Below, piece by piece: positions 9,455 to 11,540 of a stretch of 64,000 nt of DNA; position 1 is the stretch's first letter; the number at the start of each line of letters is the position of its first letter. A model generated the notes under the pieces. The model worked only from the letters and a program-made list of their open reading frames with translations. It made no database searches and was not told where the DNA came from. Origin of the DNA: Lactobacillus sp. UCMA15818 (GTDB lineage Bacteria; Bacillota; Bacilli; Lactobacillales; Lactobacillaceae); assembly GCF_030400225.1 (NCBI RefSeq), contig NZ_VJYB01000004.1, positions 1 to 64,000 on the forward strand. The letters run 5' to 3'. A program made the translations under genes and the position numbers.

Positions 9455-10210
9455 ATGGAAATTATTGAAACTATAAAAAAACACCAACCAGATTTTTCCA
9501 AAACCGAATTAGCAGTCAGCAACTATATCCTTAAAAATTTAGATCATATTGAAACCTTCACAATTACAAAGCTTGCAGATCGATCAGGAACATCAACTTC
9601 CGCTGTACTTCGTTTTTGTCAAAGCATGGGATTTAAGGGTTACAAGGACTTTCGTTTTGAACTCATCTCCTCTTTACGAACAATGCGCCATCTAAGTACA
9701 GATAAGAACTATAATAATTCACAATTTTTTAATTATTATATTGATTCCATTAATCAGCTTGAACAGTTAGATCAAGAACTATTAAAAAATTTAGTAGTTG
9801 CCCTGATGAGTCCAACCACTAATTATATAGTCGGAGTACACTTTTCAGCCTTACCTGCCAAGGGACTTTTTCTTGGGTTGGAAGATCTGGGCATAATATC
9901 CTTGTATGCAAATGACTATATCAGTGCTTCGCATTTAACAAATACTTTAAAAGATGAAGATACAATCGTCCTTTTCTCCATAAGTGGAAGCAAGCAAAAC
10001 TTCACTAATTTCTTATCATCAGTAACTTCCAATATGCCTAAAAATTCATTTCTTATCACCATGAATCCTAAGGCAGAATTGAATACTTTCTTTACTCAAA
10101 CTATTGTTTTACCTGGTTACAGTTTTTCAAATCGCTCGGTCGTCGATATACAAACTATACCTATGATGCTTGTTGAGGTTTTATTGAATATGATTCATGA
10201 TAAACAGTAA
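9455..10210 (+). CDS. RpiR/MurR-family sugar-phosphate-responsive regulator
   Basis: A 251-residue protein with an N-terminal RpiR helix-turn-helix (TITKLADRSGTSTSAVLRF, about residues 38-60) and a C-terminal SIS sugar-phosphate-binding domain (VLFSISGSKQNF region). Such proteins sense phosphosugars and usually repress nearby sugar genes. It is divergent from the bglF-GH1 operon and probably controls it. The start at 9455 follows AAGGAAA and matches the usual family N-terminus; the reading could extend upstream only into the promoter. Confidence 0.85.
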   Translation: MEIIETIKKHQPDFSKTELAVSNYILKNLDHIETFTITKLADRSGTSTSAVLRFCQSMGFKGYKDFRFELISSLRTMRHLSTDKNYNNSQFFNYYIDSINQLEQLDQELLKNLVVALMSPTTNYIVGVHFSALPAKGLFLGLEDLGIISLYANDYISASHLTNTLKDEDTIVLFSISGSKQNFTNFLSSVTSNMPKNSFLITMNPKAELNTFFTQTIVLPGYSFSNRSVVDIQTIPMMLVEVLLNMIHDKQ

Positions 10211-10329
10211 GATCCCTTATTAAAAATAATTTGTTAAATGTATACCAAACTTGCTTATTTTTAGGTTAGTTACTTCCCATTTTCACCAGCTCAACTTCAA
10301 AAAAAACGAAGACCGTGTACAAAATGCAC

Positions 10330-10455
10330 AGGAATATTTGAGTACCAACTAGAAATTGCGAACATCGTGAGTATTTTGCTATGAGTTAGACGGAGAATTT
10401 TGAATTATGAAATACGTTTATATGGAATAAATAGAGGTGCTGAATCAAAATTTAA
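10330..10455 (+). repeat. Dispersed hairpin repeat, copy B (3' arm lost)
   Basis: It matches copy A from GAGTACCAACTAGAAATT through TATGGAATAAATAGAG and CTGAATCAAAATTTAA, then diverges. The final hairpin arm is missing, so it should not work as that terminator. It lies downstream of the RpiR gene in the same direction. Confidence 0.75.
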
Positions 10456-10524
10456 GTACAAGAAAACAACCGCAAAATATTGCTTTAAAAAAATTGCAGA
10501 AAGAGCTATTATGCAGTTGGGAGT

Positions 10525-10810
10525 AAGCTAATTTTCACTTTTAATGGACTTCGAGTCCGCGTATGCGTAAACATACTTGGTGTTGGCTATAGAGCCATGG
10601 CGAAAAGACACTTTAAAGTCCTGTTCATACAGGCAATAATCGCGACTTTATTTCGTTTAGGGAGAGGTCGCTTTTTTAAGCAGTAATAGTAATCAACAAT
10701 GTGATTAGGCATGGCAGCCTTTTGCCGAATCATATTTGTGCATAGAAAGTAAAGGAAGTCATTTTAAAATACGGACTCGAAGTTCCAGGGGCTATAGTCG
10801 ACCTTAGCTT
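10525..10810 (+). ncRNA. Candidate structured RNA with paired ends (class not identified)
   Basis: No coding frame of note crosses this region. Its ends pair: TGGACTTCGAGTCCG (10545-10559) is complementary to CGGACTCGAAGTTCCA (10772-10787), 15 pairs with one bulge. An outer AAGCTAA (10525-10531) pairs with TTAGCTT (10804-10810). Inside are several local hairpins: GTATG/CATAC, TGGCT/AGCCA, CCTG/CAGG, GCGAC/GTCGC and GATTAGGCA/TGCCGAATC. That is a multi-branched fold closed by a long helix. The strand is uncertain because DNA inverted repeats are symmetric; plus is chosen for the TATTAT at 10508. I could not match it to tmRNA, RNase P, SRP or 6S RNA motifs. Confidence 0.5.
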
Positions 10811-10837
10811 CACTTTCAGTGTAAAACAAAAAGTTCT

Positions 10838-10882
10838 GGTATTAACTGATTTTCACCAATTAATACCAGAACTAATCTTGGA
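10838..10882. repeat. Perfect 14-bp inverted repeat
   Basis: AGTTCTGGTATTAA and TTAATACCAGAACT face each other across a 14-bp loop, just after the candidate structured RNA. On the minus strand it is followed by TTTTTG, so it may be a terminator in that direction; on the plus strand no T-run follows. Confidence 0.6.
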
Positions 10883-11011
10883 TTGTTTACTATTTATTGC
10901 TTCTTAATTTTAAGATTCTTTTTTACTTACACTATTTACCTTATTATATAAATCATATCTATTTTAATTCCCTGCTTATGTTGTAAGTTTTTCAATGTAT
11001 TAGTAAAAAGT

Positions 11012-11077
11012 GAACAAATTACCGCTTGCATGGGGTACAACGTATTGACTGGACTCCAACCGAGTACTAATTTGCTC
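11012..11077 (-). terminator. Hairpin with T-run after the 44-codon gene
   Basis: On the minus strand GAGCAAATTA and TAATTTGTTC pair around an inner structure and are followed by ACTTTTTAC. It lies 14 bp past the stop of the small gene at 11091 and fits a terminator, though the loop is long. Confidence 0.45.
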
Positions 11078-11090
11078 GCTTTAATAAAAG

Positions 11091-11225
11091 CTAAATTGAA
11101 TTAATATCATTTTTCAAGGCATTTAAGATATTGGAAAAATCTGTTGGAGATACATGTCTTTCTTCTAGAACACTCTTAATATCGTCGATTCTTATACAAA
11201 TTAACTTTTTTTCTGCTGTTGTCAT
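11091..11225 (-). CDS. Small conserved-looking protein of unknown function, 44 residues
   Basis: The frame starts at ATG 11225 after a near-perfect ribosome site, AAGGAGGTGATTGAA. It encodes MTTAEKKLICIRIDD followed by an amphipathic helical part ending NALKNDINSI. It is mostly charged, with no signal peptide or membrane segment. A plausible promoter lies at 11303-11331 and a hairpin with T-run lies downstream, so it looks like a monocistronic gene. I do not recognise the family. Confidence 0.65.
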   Translation of the reverse strand: MTTAEKKLICIRIDDIKSVLEERHVSPTDFSNILNALKNDINSI

Positions 11226-11378: not shown

Positions 11379-11540
11379 AGGGGCTGAGTCAAAAGTTAAA
11401 TTTTGATTCAGTTTCTCTATTTATTTCGTATAAACGTGTTTCTAAGTCAAAACTCTCCGTCTAACTTCGAATTACTCATAGCAAAGTCCTCGCTATGTTT
11501 GTAACTTCGAGTTAGTACCCAAATTTTGTAAGGCACTTCA
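11379..11540 (-). repeat. Dispersed hairpin repeat, copy C (full length)
   Basis: On the minus strand it matches copy A throughout, including the internal hairpin (CTAACTCGAAGTTAC with GTAATTCGAAGTTAG) and the final TCAAAATTTAACTTTTGA hairpin between CTG and CAG. It lies 21 bp past the stop of the HxlR gene and in the same direction. Confidence 0.85.

Follow-up and report, generated by a model that had tools for sequence, protein, structure and literature searches.

Probable remnant of an IS110-family insertion sequence in Lactobacillus sp. UCMA15818 and conserved hairpins at the two ends of its intact relatives

ISPpu9 is a member of the IS110 family of insertion sequences. RNAs from the two sides of its transposase gene, Asr9 and Ssr9, are reported to be complementary and to anneal (PMC8450116). 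IS110-group elements of the IS621 type are described as having a structured bridge RNA upstream of the gene. This RNA has a 5' stem-loop and two loops, of which the first matches the target and the second the donor end (PMC11208160). According to a study that covers both groups, the top-strand match comes first in the RNAs of IS1111 elements, whereas in those of IS110 elements it comes second, and the location of the RNA has exceptions, with 26 elements having two long non-coding ends (PMC11187229). Here, we describe a related locus in Lactobacillus sp. UCMA15818 (NCBI RefSeq assembly GCF_030400225.1), located in the first 64,000 nucleotides of contig NZ_VJYB01000004.1 (forward strand), the whole stretch of DNA that was analysed and is called the window below. 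A preliminary description had proposed positions 10525-10810 as a candidate new structured RNA with long-range closing helices. On the strength of sequence comparison, the region is very probably a single decayed, internally deleted Lactobacillaceae IS110-family insertion sequence on the minus strand, and the DNA enclosed by the helices reads as a chimera of the 5' half of a bridge RNA, the C-terminus of a transposase and a partial right end.

Both ends of the element were recognised with models that were built without the window sequence and, for the left end, also without the window's genome, and whose E-values are rough. On the minus strand, a covariance model of 22 left ends matched 10743-10879 (123.1 bits, E = 2.1e-20), covering the 5' stem-loop and the first (target) loop of a bridge RNA, and a model of 20 right ends matched the gene end and right end at 10460-10581 (84.4 bits, E = 4e-11). 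The minus strand is the informative one; on the plus strand, the left-end model reached only E = 0.86 and the right-end model found nothing in the region. Across the whole genome, the left-end model gave six matches, five of them strong, and the right-end model a single match, in the window, under strict Infernal filters by which weak matches are lost. The left terminus at 10880-10888 (minus strand) reads AAACAATCC, where relatives have AAACAATC or AAACAACC by eye in alignment A3 (alignments are defined below), and the 5' stem-loop at 10832-10873 (minus strand) is the same stem that covaries strongly in A3 (columns 27-37 with 59-69). On the 5' side of the first loop, AGCCCC (10788-10793, minus strand; complementary to GGGGCT) is the presumed target guide of the window copy, in a position equivalent to that of guides covarying with the right-end flanks in 21 intact elements. 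The tip of this loop is a hairpin, GGAACTTCGAGTCC (10773-10786, minus strand), which provides one arm of the longer helix. The second (donor) loop of the bridge RNA is missing from the remnant.

The helices had been described as enclosing no gene, which fails, as tblastn aligned the C-terminal portion of the IS110 transposase of locus L008 to 10560-10760, minus strand (55% over 67 amino acids, E = 1.3e-19, one stop). A shorter stretch, 10596-10757, reaches 65% over 54 amino acids to an IS110 transposase C-terminal part. With these alignments, the decayed 3' part of the transposase gene is placed at 10560-10736 (minus strand), the C-terminus beginning at about 10736. The L008 transposase carries PF02371 (E = 1.9e-20) and is thus of the IS110/IS116/IS902 type. 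At the nucleotide level, 10606-10756 is 75% identical to the L008 stretch, which lies in another genome inside an IS110-type gene, and plasmid records matching 10620-10707 carry an IS110 transposase annotation. The 48-amino-acid open frame of the window, searched alone, matched no Pfam family, the frame being too short. Residues LYFLRTNMI before the joint were rejected as transposase sequence, since other left ends contain the same DNA, and a phage origin was rejected, as no phage record matched. A second IS110 transposase remnant, with two stops, lies on the same contig (L035, G000:C34:108445-108648).

Both helices first reported at this locus are real. The outer helix joins 10525-10531 and 10804-10810 as 7 bp of exact reverse complements, and the inner helix joins 10545-10559 (TGGACTTCGAGTCCG) and 10772-10787 (reverse complement TGGAACTTCGAGTCCG) in 15 bp interrupted by a single bulged base. 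Within 10500-10850, long-range matches without interruption reach 12 bp at most; a 12-bp run occurred in 1 of 1000 dinucleotide shuffles and in 2 of 364 overlapping 351-nt tiles of the window, the helix site itself being among the tiles. The outer helix is regarded as chance, because its right-end arm lies in a stretch that by eye varies strongly among intact relatives, and it was on that basis rejected as a conserved feature.

In the window, the arms of the 15-bp helix lie ~210 nt apart, whereas in the intact relative L096 they lie ~1.3 kb apart, one in the left-end RNA and the other in the last transposase codons. The deletion junction at 10728-10736 (minus strand) is AATATGATT, a 9-nt microhomology that occurs as a word in left ends and in transposase genes, with copies in L096 at ~2396 and ~3515, 1,119 bp apart. 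In the simplest account, a deletion between two such words would have produced the present form and drawn the two arms from the first of these distances to the second. The right end now runs into a dispersed intergenic repeat (10333-10455, no strand assigned; local blastn, with plasmid copies), and in a pairwise alignment the similarity to the L096 right end extends to ~10445, overlapping this repeat; therefore, the terminal sequence is gone. The window copy is thus not a complete element, and because the donor loop, the right terminus and the greater part of the transposase are missing from it, the remnant should not be able to move by itself. We regard it as an ordinary dead insertion sequence, and its long helix as the fossil of a relation that is conserved between the ends of intact elements.

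Some observations do not sit easily with this reading. An intact copy of this very element was not found in the assembly, and three of the other left ends in this genome (on C8, C11 and C17) stop at contig ends, for which reasons the deletion had to be deduced from relatives that belong to other genera. The assembly yielded a single full-length IS110 transposase, a distant one with 44% identity to the query. In favour of the reading, 10728-10888 recurs at 94-96% identity on four other contigs of this genome, and related left ends lie before transposase genes of about 400 codons. Among 60 genomes, the whole stretch is present in its own genome only. Another deletion derivative is seen at L027 1303-1661 (G000:C23), where a left end and about nine transposase codons are followed by sequence resembling the dispersed target repeat (partly by eye). 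In the window, 10333-10455 and ~11396-11527 are two inverted copies (77%) of the dispersed intergenic repeat, which also occurs on plasmids of Liquorilactobacillus hordei and L. nagelii.

The left-hand repeat, in whole or in part, is present in 58 of 397 Lactobacillaceae genomes, many of the 58 matching part of the query only, and precedes a transposase frame of 402-407 codons in 8 of 10 loci examined. A scan of named genomes yielded 29 loci, in genera that include Paucilactobacillus, Levilactobacillus, Lacticaseibacillus, Limosilactobacillus, Lentilactobacillus, Loigolactobacillus, Weissella and Companilactobacillus; Paucilactobacillus vaccinostercus and Lacticaseibacillus absianus are examples of species that carry intact copies. 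Nine were left out, namely L100, L101, L102 and L115 (copies of the element of L103; L101 was used solely in the guide/flank test), L116, L117, L120 and L121 (cut off at contig ends and lacking the gene end) and L122 (partial). The remaining 20 loci, together with L071 and L093, are the 22 elements of the codon-phase and tip/hairpin duplex analyses, and a frame of 400-407 codons is present in 13 of these 22 relatives. Alignment A2 contains the 22 elements and the window; A3, 21 of the 22 (without L106) with L012 and L125; A4, the 21 elements of A3 (without L106) with L125; and A5, 20 of the 22, without L109 (runs of N) and L124. As the elements are related, all permutation figures exaggerate how independent they are. 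L104 departs from its relatives in that its transposase gene ends ~1.5 kb later, so this gene is probably interrupted by another insertion.

By its conserved structure and by the matches of its loops to target and donor end, both of which are known from bridge RNAs (PMC11208160), the left end would encode such an RNA. Applied to 23 left ends, RNAalifold gave a 5' stem-loop, a first loop with a tip hairpin and a second tip hairpin, with 22 of 43 pairs compensated, which is a bridge RNA structure in the relatives and of which the window retains just the stem-loop and the first loop. Some of the 43 pairs link the left terminus to the second loop and represent the match of guide to donor; at column pair 17-190, one position with changes in few lineages, U-A is found in 13 and C-G in 7 of the 23. 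This complementarity of second loop and donor is present in the relatives and lost in the window. On its 5' side, the first loop is complementary to the sequence adjoining the right end, and thus to the target on that side, in 21 elements (the 22 plus L101, less L118 and L124, which have no recognisable right end). The longest complementary run averaged 5.5 nt, as against 3.8 nt with flanks swapped, and 0 of 20000 permutations were as high as the native value; the run is short in L119 (3) and in L096, L104, L105 and L107 (4 each). By comparison with the known family, an intact element would move by means of a DEDD transposase, with the bridge RNA providing the pairing to target and donor DNA.

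The first loop of these elements has its complementarity to the top strand on the 5' side, and the 7-bp pair ACTAATC/GATTAGT lies near the termini, with GATTAGT in 20 of 23 left ends and the right-end motif in 21 of 23. This pair may correspond to the sub-terminal inverted repeats of 7-17 bp that mark the IS1111 group. The covarying guide RNA lies upstream of the gene and not downstream, as it would in the IS1111 group. Because of the upstream RNA, the top strand coming first and the ACTAATC/GATTAGT pair near the ends, the branch looks like a mosaic of the IS110 and IS1111 groups, which we put forward as a lead.

Both arms of the 15-bp helix have counterparts in the relatives. The arm at 10772-10787 corresponds to the first-loop tip hairpin, typically GGGACTTCGAGTCCGT, and the arm at 10545-10559 to a hairpin in the last transposase codons, hairpin B, typically ACGGACTCGAAGTCC, which is preceded by a further hairpin, A. 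In the window, hairpin A (GTATGT-TTAC-GCATAC, 10561-10576, minus strand, with covariation in 23 sequences) and hairpin B (GGACTCGAAGTCC, 10546-10558, minus strand) lie over the former last codons. Taking A and B together in 23 sequences, one of them the window, 88.5% of 253 cells form standard pairs and 7 of 11 pairs are changed on both sides. The covariation score was reached by 0 of 500 shuffles, and slid versions of the structure scored far lower, although the comparison with slid versions is tilted towards the structure, which was defined from the first sequence. Two pairs of hairpin A join third codon positions in most elements (G-C in 12 and A-U in 9; C-G in 11 and U-A in 9). Hairpin B is in one codon phase in 16 of 22 elements, in a second phase in L098 and L114 and in a third in L107 and L110, and these four retain most of its nucleotides; L098, L107 and L110 have open frames of 400-407 codons, and L114 has a broken one. 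No phase can be assigned in L109 and L123, and the hairpins of L119 and L123 have diverged. Since the hairpins covary and hairpin B survives shifts of the reading frame, A and B are, on these alignments, conserved as nucleic acid and under selection themselves. The right-end model (R2) has only four pairs, because RNAalifold kept only hairpin B there. Wobble counts leave the RNA strand undecided for hairpin A (GU 8, AC 7) and lean to the transposase-sense strand for hairpin B (GU 8, AC 1), some of these counts coming from loops of another length. More distant IS110 elements of Enterococcus, Bacillus, Staphylococcus and Cytobacillus (L126-L131) also seem, by eye, to carry gene-end hairpins, and these elements lack the complementarity to the left end.

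Hairpin B, where the transposase message of intact elements ends, may pair with the loop tip of the bridge RNA. Duplexes of tip and hairpin B are strong, with a mean of -27.05 kcal/mol in 22 elements and -9.5 with shuffled tips. For the second loop with hairpin B there was no native advantage, 71% of permutations being as good; in L093, the second loop is the better partner of hairpin B (-35.8 vs -15.6). When the best duplex anywhere in 210 nt of the left end was scored, not tip and hairpin B alone, left end and gene end beat shuffles (z of -2 or lower) in 17 of 21 Lactobacillaceae elements (the 22 without L109). In L110, both partners have changed, and this element alone is its own best partner. 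The case for pairing is lessened by the swapped tip/hairpin B pairs, which reached -25.75 kcal/mol against the native mean, with 1.8% of permutations among these related elements as good, and by the lack of a clear duplex excess in the other 4 of the 21 elements (L097, L118, L119 and L123) and in the distant elements, 0 of 8 of which show one; among these, the left flank of L127 looks disrupted. The evidence for coevolution of tip and hairpin B is weak.

The chances are about even that hairpins A and B act alone at the message end, in its stability, the end of translation or transposase binding, and that complementarity to the tip is a by-product of short GGAC/GUCC hairpins. A and B do covary as local hairpins, the B stem is kept in L071, L105, L107 and L108 though its loop no longer matches the tip, native pairs barely outdo swapped pairs, and in distant relatives the gene end seems by eye to carry hairpins that lack the complementarity. 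A by-product would not account as readily for a likeness to the reverse complement that includes flanking bases (TGGGACTTCGAGTCCGT in several elements), or for the joint change in L110. A role for tip/hairpin B pairing in regulating transposition in intact elements, by restraining or timing it, is offered as a tentative suggestion that we think rather unlikely. Similarly doubtful is the broader proposal of a Lactobacillaceae IS110 branch that would combine an IS110-style upstream guide and IS1111-style pairing order with a built-in anti-guide, that is, a gene-end hairpin that pairs with the target-loop tip, ties the message to the guide and restrains transposition. A literature search, whose scope did not include preprints and most subscription papers, returned no report of a gene-end hairpin pairing with the guide RNA in IS110 elements, and the end-to-end pairing of two conserved hairpins is possibly an unreported control device.

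The arms might also act at the DNA level, as inverted repeats to which the transposase binds, in the manner of the sub-terminal repeats of IS1111 elements, and the facts that they are inverted and lie towards the two ends of the element, and that the hairpin A wobble counts do not settle RNA versus DNA, agree with this. We consider it improbable, as one arm is within coding sequence and well away from the terminus, the separate ACTAATC/GATTAGT pair already lies near the termini, and the hairpin B counts, with the reservation given above, lean to RNA. It is likewise improbable that the remnant was kept for use by the host, for example as a transcription terminator made up of the 5' stem-loop and the T run after it; short matches to the region of this stem-loop do recur across the genome, but the remnant decays in ordinary fashion, with a stop and a frame change. 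These matches, ~35-80 nt long and confined to that end of the left end which holds the 5' stem-loop, are found in G000 on contigs C1 (381136, 420260), C34 (182804), C20 (8876), C7 (16080), C44 (67928), C43 (37360), C6 (21165) and C12 (413215), adjoin dispersed repeat R1 in several loci, and may be stubs of deleted elements or terminator-like repeats.

Structured RNA is indeed involved here, and both 15-bp arms are conserved hairpins in relatives; the idea of one compact RNA closed by the helix does not stand. The Rfam check suggested in the preliminary description gave no family at gathering score anywhere in the window, raiA RNA, a class to which the size and form had been likened, included, and none at that level in L096, L105, L107 and L027, so a known Rfam RNA was rejected. 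The best permissive match in 10200-11100 was a microRNA model on 10832-10873 (E = 1.8e-4, 30.9 bits against a gathering score of 80), a near-perfect hairpin, and is taken as chance. Homologues, also proposed as a check, exist for the parts, which recur separately as IS110 element ends; the whole was seen, among 60 genomes, in its own only. A new stand-alone RNA of ~290 nt closed by long-range helices is therefore highly improbable, despite the improbable long helix and a folding energy of 10520-10815 better than 200 of 200 shuffles on both strands (z of -4.3 on the plus and -4.0 on the minus strand), as the entire stretch is confined to its own genome among the 60, its parts come from separate mobile-element ends and its middle is coding.

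Pursuit of the window copy has brought to light, in a family of guide-RNA recombinases of biotechnological interest, a nucleic-acid feature that is conserved where the transposase gene has its 3' end, and has pointed to a possible RNA-RNA control between the guide and the transposase message. If true, this would provide a natural means to regulate bridge RNA systems and would show a mosaic between the IS110 and IS1111 groups, and the relation between the two ends of intact elements deserves experiment.

Compared with the systems described, the Lactobacillaceae elements share with the IS621 type the transposase family, an upstream RNA with a 5' stem-loop and two loops, and the matches of these loops to target and donor end, and differ in having a right end that is also long and a conserved hairpin pair over the gene end (PMC11208160). 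With the IS1111 elements and their seekRNA, they have in common the top-strand match coming first, insertion beside palindromic repeats and, if the 7-bp pair is of the IS1111 kind, a short inverted repeat near the ends, whereas their RNA lies upstream of the gene, as is usual for IS110 (PMC11187229). The nearest precedent for the relation between the ends is ISPpu9, likewise an insertion sequence in palindromic repeats with complementarity across the transposase gene, which here is found in most relatives (PMC8450116). In ISPpu9, an antisense RNA on the upstream side pairs with a separate RNA that lies downstream, past the gene (PMC8450116), whereas in the present elements the sense left-end RNA would have as its partner a hairpin within the last codons.
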